This document shows positions 1-64,000 of a stretch of 64,000 nt of DNA, in pieces. The stretch is from Myrmaecium sp. VS I D KN 1 (lineage: Eukaryota > Ascomycota > Dothideomycetes > Valsariales > Valsariaceae): the NCBI GenBank assembly GCA_019775845.1, contig JADQAV010000064.1:108825-172824 (forward strand), read 5' to 3'. The notes under the pieces are model-generated. The model was not told the DNA's origin. It did no database searches and saw nothing but the letters and a program-made list of their open reading frames with translations. How positions within the stretch are numbered: position 1 is the first letter of the stretch; every line of letters begins with the position of its first letter. The translations under genes and the position numbers were made by a program.

Positions 1-71
1 ATAATGCCTTAGCTTTGACACACCCCTTAAGGTTTATAGTATTAGTTATTTCTTTTTAATAGTAATTATTT

Positions 72-240
72 ATATATTCTATCTTATAACAGTAATCATC
101 TGTCTGTTATTATTAAATATGATTTTATATCTATTATAATCTTATAACAGCGATTATTTATCTGTTGACTTTATAATAGTAATTATATATCCATTATAAT
201 CTTATAATAGCGATTATTCATCTGTTATATTCTATCCCCG
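72..240. repeat. Three-copy tandem repeat of about 59 bp
   Basis: Three diverged copies are anchored on the word CTTATAAYAG at 83, 141 and 201, a spacing of 58 and 60 bp. Each copy continues with a CGATTATT...CATCTGTT-like stretch. The array ends just before the left terminal inverted repeat of the neighbouring TIR element. Confidence 0.6.
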
Positions 241-244
241 ATAA

Positions 245-767
245 TTTATAAGAGAATTACTATTTATAGAGGCGGGTTTTGCTAGCAGCAGAGGCTATCT
301 TATCTAATTATCTTATCGATAAGATGGAACACTAAATCCAGTGCCAGTTTTAAGACTCGCTCGAAGGTCTTCAGGCTCTCACACAGGCCCTTACGCAGGC
401 CCTCACGTAGGCTCTCACGCAGGTCCTCTTGCAGGTCCTCTCGCAGGTGCCCTCGCCCTTTAGTAGCTCCGGTCTTCCTACCTGCGTGAGGGCCTGCGTG
501 AGGGCCTGTGTAAGGACAGCCCCTAAGGTATCGTAGGCTCGCTCGCAGGAGGCTTACTTATAGGAGGCTTGCTTGCAGGAGGCTCGCTCTTAGGCCCCCT
601 CGCAGGCCCGGTTACAGGCTCTCTTTTAAGCCCTCAGAGTGCCCTTAGCAGGCCCCCCTACAGAGCGCTCGCAGGCTTATTTAGTATTTAATCTAATCGA
701 TAAACTAATTATATAAGATAGTCTCTGCTGCTAGTAAAACCGGCCTCTGTAAATAGTAATTCTCATT
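245..767. mobile_element. Non-autonomous TIR (MITE-like) element with GC-rich core
   Basis: The left end (about 245-312) and the reverse complement of the right end (about 700-767) match over about 65-70 bp, sharing GAATTACTATTTA, the TTTTRCTAGCAGCAGAG block, CTATCTTAT and the TTATCGAT region. The core holds no ORF. It contains 12-bp-period repeats of the type AGGCCCTCACGC (about 373-450), an inverted run of the same unit (about 481-515), and a 17-bp-type AGGCTYGCTYRCAGGAGG repeat (about 536-600). Terminal inverted repeats plus no coding capacity suggest a MITE-like element. I did not find a clean target-site duplication, so the exact ends and superfamily are open. Confidence 0.6.
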
Positions 768-774
768 TATAAAG

Positions 775-1185
775 ATTTTAGTTTTTAACTTATCTAGCCC
801 TTTTATAAATAAATCAGCTGTCTGTTCTGCCGTTAGAATATACTTTAGGCTTATAAAACCTGATAACACGTAATCCCTAGCTATATAATACTATATATCT
901 ATATATTTAGATCTAGTGTGGTATTTAGGGGTTTTTACTAATTCTATTACTACTTCTATATATATCTAGTTATTTAAGTAAAATAGCTAGCTATATATAT
1001 TCTTTTATAGCCTCTTTTAATACTATATATTCGGCTTTATAGATTAATAGGGCTACCGATTTTCATAGGGTGCTAGGCCAGCTTATTAGATATTTATTTC
1101 CTTATAGAAATAAATAGCTAGTAGTGCTTTTTCTAGTTATATAATCACCCCCCTACTCTGAATTAGTATAGCCGATTAGATTAAG
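775..1185 (-). mobile_element. Decayed Ty1/copia retrotransposon, RNase H C-terminus
   Basis: Read on the minus strand, the stretch from about 1180 down to 1020 gives a copia-type RNase H signature: GYTNSE*GGDYITRKSTT, then a match to the VALSSTEAEY motif as VALLIYKAEY. Further down (about 950-780) comes the usual copia C-terminal part, with KTPKYHTRSKYIDI and a TAEQTADLFIKGL match. Several stops interrupt it, including one at the position of the conserved Trp, so it is a pseudogene. More of the pol gene probably lies upstream on the minus strand (1185-1500) but is too mutated to align by eye. The right TIR of the MITE-like element sits directly against the C-terminus. Confidence 0.75.
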
Positions 1186-1761
1186 ATTAAGTGATTTAGA
1201 GTATTTATATACTAGCCCTAATTTCTTTAGTACTATTTAGATACTTCTAAATGCGGTATAGTGCCCTCTAGTGATTTTTATCTATATTTACCATATATCT
1301 AGTGCATTACAACCACCTGATAGTGCCTCTATTTAGTGGTTTTAATTTATTATAACTATATTATAATGCCTTATTTTTGACAGTGATTTACTACCTGCTA
1401 AATACTCCTCTAGATATTATACTATATATCTTAACCTATAGATCTCTTATCTAATAAGTATAAGTAAACATCTAAGTATATTCAGCTATCTTAATATAAT
1501 CTAATAGTTTCTTCTCTATTATTATATAATATTAGTAGTTCAGGTACCTTATGAATTATTTAGTAATAACCTTTAATTTTAATAGAATTTAGAGAAATAA
1601 CGGCTTTATATATTAATCCCTGTTCTAATCCTTAAGATTACTATTATAATTACTTTTATACTAATTAAACCTGCTCTTCTAATAACTTTAATCCTAAATA
1701 TAGCTATAATAATAGTCTATAGAAGTTTATAGTTTATCGAGATTTACCTGATATTATAAGA

Positions 1762-1840
1762 AGTACTATTTGCAGAGGTAAGTTTCCTAAGCGGTAGAGG
1801 CTATCTTATCCTATCGCCTTATTAATAAGATTAAATACTA
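1762..1840 (+). repeat. Second, mutated copy of the TIR sequence
   Basis: ACTATTT-CAGAGGTAAGTTT followed by GTAGAGGCTATCTTATC and a TAAGAT...ACTAAA end aligns with the left TIR at about 255-330. The following 100 bp contains CGCCCTATATAGGCTCTTA, which resembles an AT-drifted version of the GC-rich repeat core of the first element. A matching right-hand TIR was not found. Confidence 0.5.
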
Positions 1841-3725
1841 AAATATTATATATTAAGAATCCGCTATACTATTACTCTTATTAGCTATATCGCTCTATAA
1901 TATCTTTTAAGCGCCCTATATAGGCTCTTAAAACTACTTTCTATATTACTTATAGGCGTCTAAATAGATATACTACCTCTAGGTCCTTATATAGACCGCC
2001 AGGAAGCCTTATAGGCTATTAAGAACTAGGTAAAGGCTTATAGTTATAGTATTATAATAAATAATAGGGATGTCTAGAGTAAAATATTCAGATTTCAGAT
2101 AAGGATACGTAGATTATTAATAGAGTATATATTAAATATAGTAGAGGCTCTATATATAATTTAGTTACTATATACCGCTAGATAAATATATATAAAAAGA
2201 CGATCCTTTAAAATAGTAATTAAGTATATTAAGGAGGGGTATACTTTCTAGCTAGTTAAGATAATTAAAGCTGCCTATAACTATTACTAGTATATATAAA
2301 TATAGCTCTACTAGCCTACCGTATACTATTAAGCGATAATAAGAAGTTAATATATATTCTTTTAGCTATAAAAGTAACGCCTAGATAGATATAGACTATC
2401 CTAATATTATAATAGCTAATATATATAAGTATAATAAGATACTATAGATATATAAAGAGTTATTAAATAGCCTTATACTAACTTAATCCTTCTAGCTAAC
2501 TCTTTAAGAGTAGGAAAAATAATACTCTAAATACTAGTATATATTTAAATAGTGTAGTAATAATAACTATATTAATTATCTCTTCTAGGCTTATCTAAGC
2601 TCTATTAAGCTCCTTAAGTAGTATCCTAATCTCCTTCTTATTAACAGTATATATAAGATAAACTACTATAATATACCTCTTATCTATATAACTAGTTTTA
2701 TATAAGGCCTTATATTTAATATAGCGTACGCGCTTATTATTAGGGAAAATAAAATAAACTATACTTTATTTATAACTTATCGAGGGGCCCTTTAGTAATA
2801 AATACTATATAAAAGCCGCGTTTCTCAGTTATAAATAAGAAGAGGGCCTTAAAGAACGCCTATAAAAGTAGTAAGTACTTCTAATTAGGACCTTAGTTAT
2901 ATTAATAGTATACTAGATATCTTCTGAATTATAGATAGCTAGAGTAGGAAGTACTAGGATTATAAAAAGGGCCTATTAAGTAAGGAGGAGAAGAAGGAGC
3001 TTTAATAAAAATATTAGGAATCTAATATTAAATAGAAGACGCTAATAGAGTTAAAGTTAAAAACTAACTTTAATACTTAATAGTAAATGCTTAAAGATAA
3101 CTATTTAATATAGATTATTCTATTAATATATCTATAGAAAGAGTAACTAGATAAGTAGAAGAAAAGTTTATTAACTTCTAAATTAGCTATAGTATTATAG
3201 TATAAAGTGAATTCTAGTCTCCTAGTATTAAGTTAAACGCTTTTAATAACTATACTATAAGACTACTTATACTAATAAAAGTACTTATACTTATTCTAAG
3301 ATATATCTAAATAGCGTAAAGGGCGATCTTCTCTTAGTTATAAAAGTTATTTATATTAAGATAGTTTTTACTAATATACTTAATAATATTACACCTATTA
3401 ACCTAGTATACTCTAGAAATAAATAAGGGATATAGTTAGGAATACTTCTACTATCTCCTAATATAATTAGACTAGTATTTAGCTATACTAAGACTAGAAC
3501 TAGTATTAAATAATTAATTCTGGGTAGTTACGGTAGATATGCGATTAAAGTCGCCTCTAAGCCCCTGAGCCGACCGGCTGGTCAACCAACCTAGCCATCC
3601 GATTATCTCCTATACCAGTCCCGTCCCATTCGACCCAGAAGAATCCTTTCCCCTATCCATCCAAGACTGATCGGATCACTTAAACCTCACTCTTTGCGTC
3701 CCCTGACGAAGCTGCCTCCTCTCGG

Positions 3726-5913
3726 TTATGGTTTTTCGTCCTTCTCCTTCCCGGATCCAGGCGTATCCACTTCCAGCGGACTCTCCGACAGCGACGATGC
3801 GGTTGTTGCCACCGTACCCTTCCTCTGTTCAGGACCACCTCTTCCCTCCCCTTCCACGTGCACATCCCCCATCCCACCTACCTCCACACCCACATCATGG
3901 CCCCTTATTCCCCCCAGAACCCCCCGCACCCGCTCTGCTACCCCGCCCACCTCACTCAGCAACCCCACCAGCTGTACGCCCTGCACCTGCAACTCCGCCA
4001 CTGCCCTCTCCAACACTCCATTCCGATCCCGCAGCCGCTCCACCTCTCCTCGCAACGTTACCGCCGACCCGTCCGCGTCGTATCCCGGCCCCAGGCCTGG
4101 TCCTGCTGAACTTCCGCGCCGACACCGGCACCGCCTCCGCTCCTCCCGCCCACGCTCCTCCAGCGCACTCGCCATGGCCACGATGCGCCCGTACTGTCCC
4201 GCGCACGCGGCAAGTTGGCTGCGAGCCTCATCCCGGGCGGCCGCCAACCCGCCCACCTGCTCCTCCAGCCCGGCCAGCTGGGCTCCCAGCCGCTCACGCT
4301 CCTCGAGCAGGCCATGCAGCTCCGCCTCGGCGGTCGCGGCCTTGGCCTCCAGCGCTGCGTTTCGGGCGCGCTGTCGCTCGAGGTGCTGCATGCAGAGCTC
4401 GTGTGTGCGCTGGAGCGTCGACAGCTGGACGGTCTGCAGGCTGAGCTGGTGCTGCAGGTCGTGCAGATGGGATGTTTGGACGCCGGTCAGAGTGGATATG
4501 GAGGCGGAGGTGGGCGCACTTGAGGGCGGAGGCGGGAGCGGCGGAGGCGGGGAGGAGACGGGGGCAAGAGAGGAGAAGCTGGAGGCGGGAATCTGGGTCA
4601 GGGACGAGGGCGATGGAAGCAGCCGCTGGGACGTTGAGCCTGTGAGTGGGGAGCGGGATGGAATGTAGCCGGATGTGCTGCTGGTGGAGGCGGTCCGACG
4701 GGGGGACTGGGGGATCGAAGCGGGTGGTGGTCCGTGGGTGGAGGGAGGCCGACGGAGTTCAATAGCGTCCACGCTGTACGGCTGAGACGGTCGACGTGGC
4801 GGGTGGACGGGGCCAGAGAGAGTCCTTCGGAACGGAGGCATACCTGTTGACGATTCGGTGTTGCCCTGACGCCGCTTGACGCCTTCCGCAAAACGAGCGC
4901 CGTAGAATCCAGCGCCTTCGAATTTGAAGGGATAATCACTCACACGGTCGACGTCCGATCTTGTCGTTAGATCTGAGAGGCCGATGCTGTCCCCTTTCAC
5001 AACGTCGAGAACCCACTCCAGAGTCCGGTCGTAGCTGAGGTGGTCGATGTCGGGGATCTGAAAAGGGCGTGAGAAGAAAGAGCGGACGAAGACGCCCGAA
5101 GCTGCAGCCACAGCGCGCCGGGTAGAGAGTGAGCGGGATAGGGGGCAGATGTGGCGCCGGACATACCTCCTTGACCGCCTGAGCAGACTCCACCAACGAA
5201 CTCTGCAGCTTCGAGTCCAGAAGTACCAGCTCAGCGGCGAGCTTGCGAAGCAGAACGCGAACCCTCGTGCATGTAGGTCCAGTGCAAGTGACGGGGCAGC
5301 ATCGCGCCGATGTAGAAAGGTGTTCGGCTTGGATGTCCACTGCATGACCAGACAACGTTCCCGATGACAATGACGCTGAGGATGGTTCGGACAGACTAGT
5401 CTTGGCGTCTGCAGTGAATGACAGTAAGCAAAACAACTGCCACCAAAGTCTCGGGCAGCTTCAGGCAGGCGTGGTCCGCGCTGAGGGGCCGAGCGAGGAT
5501 GATTTACCTGTGATTGTCTTGGACTCATCGCGTTCCCATCCTGAGGGAAGGCCGGCGTTGGCCTGGGTTTGGTTGTATTCATACAGTCGCGGGCGCTTGT
5601 CTTGATAACCGTACTGCTGCTCGCTTGGCTCAAACCTGAATGGTTCATAACCTATTTGCGCGCTCTTCTGGAAGGTGTTTGAGGCCGCCGCACTGTCGCG
5701 ATGCTTGCCGGCCGATGTGTCACTCGTGGTTGGAAGTAGAGGTGGCAGCCGCCAATCGTCACCTTGGCCGTCACGAGTGGCCCAGCCGGCCTGTAGAGGC
5801 AGTGACGGGAGGGGTTCCTGGTGAGCAGATCCGGCGGAAAGCAGGTAGGTAGGTCGGAAGTCGGAGGGGTGAGTAGATTCCCATGGTCTTTTCCTGCCTG
5901 TCCACGATTCCAT
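3726..5913 (-). CDS. Conserved coiled-coil protein of unknown function
   Basis: The model joins 5913-5508, 5408-5167 and 5057-3726 and gives 659 aa. The start MESWTGRKRPWES was chosen over an upstream in-frame Met at 6036 because its N-terminus looks like a genuine protein start. Introns have GTAAAT...CTGCAG and GTATGT...TTTCAG ends. The middle exon holds a short Cys-rich stretch (CCPVTCTGPTC) followed by a helix. A Pro/Ser-rich linker then leads to a long coiled coil (about residues 400-530, with LERQRARNAALEAKAATAEA) and a second short coil. It resembles a fungal family of predicted nuclear coiled-coil proteins, but I see no GATA or Zn2Cys6 finger. Function unknown; exon structure is moderately certain. 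Confidence 0.65.
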
Positions 5914-61108: not shown

Positions 61109-63448
61109 TTACACCAAAGTAATCTTCTGCATCCGTGGTCCGGCGTACCAGAAAGCCTCGACGTCACAGACGCCGACCCCGATTCTTTGCGCCTCGCCAT
61201 CTCCCCCCTCCCTCTGAATGACAAGGACATCATACATCCTCCAGCTGAGCTCGGTGATAGTATGCATGACCATATAGCTCGCAGCGCTCCGGTCATTCCT
61301 AATACTCCGCCGTCTCACATAGTCCTGCTTGATTTCCAACACATCCTCATCGCCTTCCGGCGGCGGCTGCGCAGGATGGTCTCTTCCCTCCGCATCCGCA
61401 GTTCGGGAGATAGCAACTAATTCGTACTTCCTTGGACTGCTGCCATCTTTTGAGTTGTCATCGTGGATGTATACCACTCCACAGGAAGAGTTGTGCTCGT
61501 CGAACAGCGTGTACGAGACCATCTCTGGGTCTAAGGGTATGGTTGACGGCGCCTTCTCCCGCTCTGGTCGAGCCATGAGAGACACGGTATAAGCGATAAA
61601 GGACAGTTTCCATGACTCGGGCTTCGTGAAATGGCGCGAGGTTGTGTTGGCCGATACCGGATGTGCGAATAGTACCAGCGGGTTACTCTTGTCGCGGTAT
61701 CCAGGCGCCTTGTCGTCACCTCTGTCATGGACCTCCCAATCACTATGTTGTTGTTGATCCCTCCGTTCACTACCTCCCCGCCACTGATCCGTCGTAAATC
61801 CCGTCCCAGCGTCGGCGTCCACCCAGACGACTCTGCTAAATTGCCGGGGCTGGAGGGAGCCAAAGCACACCGCCCCTTTCCACGCCGCCCAGCTCCAGCT
61901 CGGGAACAGCGGCTTTTTGGTATCATCGTCCAATCTGCGCTCCAAGGTGCTCGACTGCGGGTACCACAGCAGCGCGTACTCGAGCTCCGACGTGGGTAGC
62001 CCGAATAAGAACGGACGGCGAAAGTACGCGCGCATGATATTAGCCAGCCCGGCAAAGGCGTGCAGCGCGTCCGATTGAAAGGTCAGTTTCTTGGTCGAGT
62101 AGAACATGACGGACATGCCGTACAGCTCGGTGTTCAAGAACGCAGTGCCTTGCTGCGAGAGCCCGGGGATGCCGAAGTTTGCCAGCGTCAGCTCGGGGCC
62201 TGGTTCCTTGTGCAGCGGGGCGTGCACGTCTTCGGCTGTCCAGCCGTCTTCGCTCGCCAGGAAACAGCCGTCCCGCCCGAGATGGATTTTCCGCAGCGAC
62301 AGGCATTCCTCTTGGTATGTCCATCCGCGCTCCTGCCACACGCGCGGACCGTAGCCGGGGAGGAAGATCTGCCGGTTCGCGAGCTGCATGCCGCGGACCT
62401 CGACGACGTGTTGCGTCCATCGTTTCGGGTGGTCTGCGCGTTGGCCCGGCAAACCGGCATCGGCGTTGGTCCCGTATGCAGCGATGATGGTGGCTACGGC
62501 GCAACCGTAGATGCGGTCCATCGCGTTGATCAGGTCGATCTTCCGCTCGTCGTCCTGCACGATGCACAGCGAGTCCACCCAGACATACCGCTCCCCGATC
62601 GCGGCGGTGAACTCCATGGCATCCGCGATCGTCCTCGGCAGCTTCGACGGCGCGAGGCTGCCGGGCTTGCGCAAGAGCAGATCCCGCGCCTTCAGATTCT
62701 TAAACGCCTGGTCACCTCCCCAGACGTAACTCAAGGCAAGGTATCTGCATCCCGCCGGACCACGCACCAGCACGACGCTCCGCTGCTGCACGTCGATGAC
62801 GCGAAACTCCCGCAGCGGCTCCTGCGTGAACCCCGCCACGGCCTTTCCGGAGGGGTATCGTCCAATCCATTTCCGAATCCGCGCAAAGTCCAGCAGCTGC
62901 CCGACCCGCGCGCCTTCGAACGGCACCTCGCTCTCGCTGAGCCGGTGCACGGGCAGGACCTTGAAGGCGCTGAATTGGACGCTAACCCCTTGAAAATCGC
63001 GGAGCAGGATCTCGATCTCGTAGACGTGGGCGTCCGAGCCGGCGATTTGCGCTTCGATCTTGCGGCTGTTCGACAGCGTGATGTAGATGTCTGGCGAAGC
63101 GTGCCCGTCGTAGCTGATGTGCTGGAGATCCTGTGTTCGGGTCTCGTAGCCGGCGGCGATGGTTAGCGTGATGAGCCGGCAGAAGTTACATTGCTCGGCT
63201 TTGCGGAGGATGTCTGTAAGGAAGCCCAGGGCGAGCTCCGGAAGGTTTTCCGTGACTTTCCGACACGACGGCGGTTTTGCGCGGTTGTTGCCATGCTGTA
63301 GAGCCGCTCCAGGCACGTATTGTCGGAACAGTGTGACTTCGACGGGGTTGCTCAGGAGCCACTCGAAATTGATCTCGCCGCAGACGTCGCATAGATGAGG
63401 ACAGCGCGGCGCTGTCGAGGTGTCCAAATACCAAGGTCTCGAAGCCAT
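61109..63448 (-). CDS. HET-domain (heterokaryon incompatibility) protein
   Basis: Single-exon ORF, 779 aa from the start MASRPWYLDTST; a longer 833-aa form from 63610 is possible but its extra N-terminus lacks domain character. After a Cys-containing N-terminal region (CPHLCDVCGEINF) comes the HET domain (about residues 230-390): CRYLALSYVWGG, RYVWVDSLCIVQDD, DRIYGCAVATIIAAYG and WQERGWTYQEECLSLRK. HET proteins trigger cell death on non-self recognition during hyphal fusion, usually with partner loci; this one's role is inferred. The C-terminal half has no recognised domain. Subtelomeric location is common for HET genes. Confidence 0.9.
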   Translation of the reverse strand: MASRPWYLDTSTAPRCPHLCDVCGEINFEWLLSNPVEVTLFRQYVPGAALQHGNNRAKPPSCRKVTENLPELALGFLTDILRKAEQCNFCRLITLTIAAGYETRTQDLQHISYDGHASPDIYITLSNSRKIEAQIAGSDAHVYEIEILLRDFQGVSVQFSAFKVLPVHRLSESEVPFEGARVGQLLDFARIRKWIGRYPSGKAVAGFTQEPLREFRVIDVQQRSVVLVRGPAGCRYLALSYVWGGDQAFKNLKARDLLLRKPGSLAPSKLPRTIADAMEFTAAIGERYVWVDSLCIVQDDERKIDLINAMDRIYGCAVATIIAAYGTNADAGLPGQRADHPKRWTQHVVEVRGMQLANRQIFLPGYGPRVWQERGWTYQEECLSLRKIHLGRDGCFLASEDGWTAEDVHAPLHKEPGPELTLANFGIPGLSQQGTAFLNTELYGMSVMFYSTKKLTFQSDALHAFAGLANIMRAYFRRPFLFGLPTSELEYALLWYPQSSTLERRLDDDTKKPLFPSWSWAAWKGAVCFGSLQPRQFSRVVWVDADAGTGFTTDQWRGGSERRDQQQHSDWEVHDRGDDKAPGYRDKSNPLVLFAHPVSANTTSRHFTKPESWKLSFIAYTVSLMARPEREKAPSTIPLDPEMVSYTLFDEHNSSCGVVYIHDDNSKDGSSPRKYELVAISRTADAEGRDHPAQPPPEGDEDVLEIKQDYVRRRSIRNDRSAASYMVMHTITELSWRMYDVLVIQREGGDGEAQRIGVGVCDVEAFWYAGPRMQKITLV

Positions 63449-63724
63449 GACCGCGGCTTGAAGGGATTGTGTGAGGGGTGAGTGACGGGATGAGGTGGGG
63501 TAGGATCCCCGCCATCTTGATGCATGAGAGAAGGCTTTTAAGAGGTTGGTTGATCCTTTCGGCCCCCACGTATATATTGACGTGTAGTATGGTCGCAAAG
63601 TAATCGTCAACCTCGAAAATAGCTCAGCCTTCCTGCATATGTAGGTCCTACTTCTGTGCGAGGAGTCGAAAAGGAGAGGTAGGTATATAGCTATGAAGAA
63701 GACATATTACAGATCAAGACCTTG

Positions 63725-63970
63725 CTAAAGTACAAACGCCTCCGCAAGAGAGACATGCTCAACTAACGTCTCCTCCTCCGCCTGCCGCAGCTTCTCCACC
63801 ACAAACCCATCCAGCTCAGCTTGCTCCTCCTCCGTCAGCAAACGCAGCCGGTCTTCAAGCGAGGTGAAAGGGCCAAAGTGCCGCTCATCAAGGCACTGCC
63901 AGTACACATCGTCAAAGAGGAAGGGTCGGGTAGCCGCAAGCACGAACCAGAAAACGCCGTTGTCGAGCGA
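63725..63970 (-). pseudogene. 3' end of a gene truncated by the telomere
   Basis: The minus strand is open for 82 codons (SLDNGVFWFVLAATRP... to ...HVSLAEAFVL stop) without interruption up to the first telomere repeat, where an in-frame TAA follows at once in the telomere itself. Only a Met at residue 11 could start it, giving 72 aa. The Glu/Leu-rich helix-like composition and the stop-free frame suggest the tail of a real gene whose 5' part is lost. I recognise no family; it does not resemble the telomere-linked helicases of some fungi. Confidence 0.6.
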
Positions 63971-64000
63971 GGGTTAGGGTTAGGGTTAGGGTTAGGGTTA
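63971..64000 (+). repeat. Telomere repeat array, 5 x TTAGGG (end of chromosome)
   Basis: Perfect GGGTTA units fill the last 30 bp, G-rich strand running 5' to 3' to the right edge, which is the orientation expected for a right chromosome end. The array is short, so the assembly may have been trimmed. No subtelomeric tandem repeats precede it. Confidence 0.95.

Follow-up and report, generated by a model that had tools for sequence, protein, structure and literature searches.

Chromosome ends that lose their tips and are sealed by new telomeres have already been documented in Pyricularia and in Zymoseptoria, and beside them the end described here, taken alone, is an ordinary case. In Pyricularia (Magnaporthe) oryzae, TTAGGG arrays are found on single-copy DNA after terminal loss; in the parts of the reports drawn on here, seeds of 1-4 bases gave rise to 19 of 24 new telomeres at the rDNA end, and conservation of the telomere junctions is poor, 331 of 689 being confined to a single strain (PMC7367193; PMC8381367). 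In the kmt1 mutants of Zymoseptoria tritici, according to the excerpted account, breaks were healed by TTAGGG repeats, and one of the breaks sealed in this way lay in a gene-rich region (PMC6510446). The ends of Neurospora crassa, so far as the available sections of the report describe them, share no subtelomere and carry about 2 kb of AT-rich, RIP-marked DNA between the telomere and the first gene (PMC2596135).

The window, which is the whole stretch of DNA that was analysed, covers the final 64,000 of the 172,824 bases of contig C53, in a genome assembly of 25.66 Mb and 66 contigs, and the end of the window is the end of the contig. The telomere array at this end stands on single-copy DNA and adjoins a coding-like open frame that has no second copy in the genome. 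Like the Pyricularia junctions, it joins TTAGGG repeats directly to unique DNA; unlike them, it is known without a progenitor, whereas the events in that fungus were seen against one and their seeds could be scored (PMC7367193; PMC8381367, in the parts used here). The healed breaks in Zymoseptoria match the reading proposed here in their TTAGGG repeats and differ in that laboratory mutants were followed by reads and gels, as the excerpted account has it, while C53 is seen in a single assembly (PMC6510446). With Neurospora the genome shares the lack of a repeat common to its ends and, at many ends, AT-rich tips with a RIP signature; the AT-rich spacer of about 2 kb described in the available sections has no counterpart at C53, and at the other ends AT-rich tips give way after some 300-600 bases (PMC2596135). 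The features of the C53 end are as follows.

63970 to 64000, plus strand: telomere array that closes the contig, a perfect TTAGGG repeat of 31 bases, beginning AGGG
63725 to 63969, minus strand: coding-like, putative C-terminal remnant of 80 codons and a stop (63725 to 63727), which lacks an ATG and the 5' part and runs inward from the telomere
63729 to 63977, plus strand: open frame opposite the remnant, serine-rich, no ATG, judged to be a shadow frame
63449 to 63724, minus strand: 276 bases that separate the remnant stop from the HET gene at its first plausible ATG
61109 to 63448, minus strand: HET-domain gene with a Pfam HET match; counted from its first plausible ATG, it is a single open frame of 779 codons

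The base that precedes the array is G. In a search of the genome against itself, the final 2,970 bases of the contig and the final 23-mer ahead of the array matched only themselves. Telomere repeats thus abut single-copy DNA without a subtelomere, which is the arrangement sought as a test for de novo telomere healing. No classical subtelomere was seen either, as no match of more than 50 bases to another end was found in the last 2 kb (28 ends compared). With a GC content of 0.54 and a RIP index that is formally barely positive, at 0.01, the last 300 bases do not form a RIP-mutated, AT-rich tip of the Neurospora kind. The last 200 bases have a GC content of 0.60, higher than at 23 of the 27 other ends. 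At the opposite side of the window, positions 1-4000 are AT-rich (GC 0.26-0.39 vs 0.48-0.70 elsewhere in the window) and look like a RIP-mutated repeat island.

Each strand has a stop-to-stop frame of 82 codons that extends to the array, at 63725-63973 on the minus strand and at 63729-63977 on the plus strand, and both hit a stop within the first telomere repeats; read from the repeat, one of the three frames on each strand meets a stop inside a TTAGGG array. Neither translation holds an ATG, and therefore neither frame is a whole gene. The original prediction was of an open frame that runs into the first TTAGGG unit and stops there, and its coordinates (63725..63970, strand unnamed) fit the minus frame. 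Such a frame is present, with its stop in the array, but both strands are open, and among 5,000 random window positions an open frame of 81 codons or longer extended to the position in 72%, and two did in 46%. A frame of 82 codons is for this reason unremarkable and proves nothing by itself.

The choice between the strands was made with codon usage and fold models. A larger codon model, trained on 61 long frames (29,033 codons) that were themselves picked by the same score, identified the right frame in 92.8% of 572 held-out pieces of 80 codons. It gave the minus frame, which has no stop, a score of 13.8, close to the mean for known frames (15.5, sd 11.4), and the plus frame a score of -7.9. 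Under the same model the antisense frame in register with the minus frame scored 14.5 but contains a stop, and a small codon model trained on two genes favoured the plus frame (9.9 vs -3.5 for the minus frame); both results were counted against a truncation. The larger model was trusted over the two-gene model. AlphaFold2, run without an alignment, predicted four helices for the minus frame (pLDDT 66.2, pTM 0.54) and returned a pLDDT of 42.9 and a pTM of 0.17 for the plus frame. Because the larger codon model and the fold model both speak against it, the plus-strand reading was dropped, despite the preference of the small model. If the gene lies on the minus strand, its reading direction is from the missing side towards the interior of the contig, and the part that was kept would therefore be the C-terminus. 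On these models, the minus frame may represent the C-terminus of a gene whose 5' part is lost.

A longer homologue of the tail, to which the original prediction had looked, did not appear: no significant relative was found in the genome itself, Pfam, NCBIfam, PDB, viral contigs or plasmids, and this was counted against a truncation. Because no relative was found and the sets searched include no collection of other fungal genomes, a longer ancestral gene is only inferred, and with sets of this scope the absence of a relative says little. Nothing usable came from NCBIfam (best E 0.17), from PDB by sequence (best E 0.16, a coiled coil) or from PDB by fold with the model of the minus frame (a single match, E 4.9). 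A resemblance of the tail to the C-termini of fungal aminoglycoside-phosphotransferase (APH)-like proteins went unsupported, with no Pfam match and best E values of 2.9 in six-frame tblastn and 2.5 in phmmer when 12 of the 23 APH places were compared along with the end loci. All six frames were also scanned for a motif, with the APH loci inspected in plus frames only, and gave no match. A degenerate DNA pattern for F-D-x-x-[FY]-W occurred at 20 places, and the 13 inspected among the 19 others held no relative of the tail. An APH-family match at C7:898187-898762 sits about 490 bases from the C7 telomere array.

The other ends of the genome provide the background against which C53 can be read. 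Telomere arrays were located with an 18-base pattern, which identifies 28 contig ends on 27 contigs (among 82 pattern matches listed); the sequence read comprised about 10 kb at each of 13 right ends and 2 kb at each of 15 left ends. Beyond the arrays, the likeness between ends in the last 2 kb is limited to a few short or diverged pairs, of at most 169 bases at 73% identity, and no common subtelomeric repeat was found among the 28 ends compared. The original prediction had treated the missing subtelomeric repeat as a mark of a break. The repeat is indeed missing at C53, but its absence is the rule among the 28 ends and so lends no support to a break. Many of the other tips are AT-rich with a RIP-like signature and an index of up to 2.07, unlike the C53 tip, and this difference was counted for a truncation. 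The RIP composite index is above 0 in the last 300 bases of 21 of the 28 ends, C53 included by its 0.01, as compared to 17% of 3,000 interior window pieces and 23% of 296 pieces taken from deeper inside the right ends. A C stands just before the array at 14 of the 28 ends where 8.5 would be expected (P 0.02, one of several looks at the data); a C can never belong to the array, and the preference was left unused. Near the left end of C13 (C13:215-237, with the pattern match at 215-232), a short inward TTAGGG array that is not terminal lies in AT-rich DNA; it is an interstitial array, or perhaps the mark of an old fusion.

The best reading of the C53 end, and a probable one, is that it was truncated within a gene and received its telomere directly at the cut. 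An ordinary, long-standing end, with the telomere on non-coding single-copy DNA near a HET gene and both frames open by chance, is unlikely, though it has several points in its favour: frames of this length are common at random positions, the tail has no homologue in the sets searched, and all ends of the genome, as far as compared, stand on unshared DNA. Against it are the codon score and the fold model of the minus frame, the GC-rich last 200 bases and a tip that is not AT-rich. Telomeric repeats wrongly joined to the end of an internal contig, by the assembly or in the library, would account for arrays of 28-35 bases at 23 of the 28 ends and of exactly 31 bases at 15 of the 28 (strict periodicity). 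This near-uniform length looks like an assembly limit, so that the assembler rather than biology would set the visible length; but all 28 terminal arrays have their G-rich strand outward, as at chromosome ends (which was counted for a truncation), and no other contig carries the last 23-mer, so the assembly holds no continuing sequence. An artefact of this kind is quite improbable.

A tip copied from elsewhere together with a partial gene, through break-induced replication or duplicative transfer, and then capped is very improbable at C53, where the final 2,970 bases have no second copy in the genome; copying of this type does happen in Pyricularia, according to the parts of the reports used here (PMC7367193; PMC8381367). 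The most improbable account is a chromosome fission in which both sides were healed and the lost 5' part now lies on another contig. Twenty-eight telomere-bearing ends would be many if the chromosome number is low, which suits a fission, but no pair of halves was recognised.

In the favoured truncation inside a gene, the C53 arm, once longer, would have lost its tip by break or erosion within the coding part of a minus-strand gene, and telomerase would have capped the broken coding sequence directly. A dead remnant, made up of the final 80 codons with their stop and the 3' flanking sequence, would be left upstream of the HET gene, which has an open frame. The break healed by a telomere within a gene, as originally predicted, is thus retained as the best reading in a changed form: the gene would lie on the minus strand, with its C-terminus kept and its 5' part gone. 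C53 would add an example of a chromosome end that stands on a gene instead of a subtelomere.

Coding DNA also meets the array at other ends. With a criterion of at least 50 open codons and a codon score above 8, coding-like junctions were found at 4 of the 28 ends (C53, C26, C10 and C61), a result counted for a truncation. The same criterion is passed by 38% of interior positions (3,000 window positions) and by 37% further in at 12 end loci; coding-like junctions are accordingly rarer than random breaks would give, and this was counted against a truncation. At the three other ends, a frame with a Pfam domain runs to or from the array. The array cuts the C26 frame within a permease domain; the AA_permease_2 match spans positions 23-79 of 427 and reaches residue 86 of 88. 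The C10 frame begins at the array and carries a methyltransferase domain, and the C61 frame, which is 189 codons long and carries an F-box, runs into it; in both the domain itself is uncut, and neither frame has a second copy in the genome. A known unit appears clearly cut at the junction only at C26. A search for the lost half of the C26 permease gave 21 permease matches (21 of 38 candidates scored), and the C26 fragment itself was not recovered among them. C42, which is GC-rich, falls short of the criterion; its 80 codons score 13.5 and include one stop. Taken together, four or five such ends are more telling than C53 alone.

It is conceivable, but doubtful, that this fungus repeatedly loses its tips and seals them inside genes, and that its ends form an age series. 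Such a series, to be regarded with the same doubt, would run from fresh coding-cut ends (C53, C26, C10, C61 and perhaps C42) to older tips in which some 300 bases are RIP-like and AT-rich. If it is true, the turnover of chromosome ends could be read from one genome; and should the state of the tips allow the ends to be put in order, a single genome would show both their loss and their replacement. The RIP index of the last 300 bases is 0.15 at C26, 0.0 at C10, -0.62 at C61 and 0.7 at C42. The coding-like and AT-rich classes are not clean, because the non-coding ends C54 and C41 also have an index below 0.

The HET gene beside the junction was part of the original argument for a break. The minus-strand frame at 61109-63706 matches Pfam HET with an E value of 7.9e-30 and lies on the same strand as the putative remnant. 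This gene does adjoin the junction, but it is no sign of a break, because HET matches cluster near telomeres in this genome, as they do in Neurospora, where the available part of the report places HET genes near telomeres more often than by chance (PMC10684091). The genome has at least six HET matches at E values up to 1e-5, and among the six listed, three are no more than 13 kb from a contig end with a telomere (C53, C18 and C55). This zone makes up 1.4% of the genome, which gives an enrichment with P about 6e-5 at a limit set after seeing the data; at 20 kb, P is 2e-4 for the six matches listed. The HET neighbour is a feature of chromosome ends. The matches near other telomeres are at C18:3797-4228 and C55:30182-30655.
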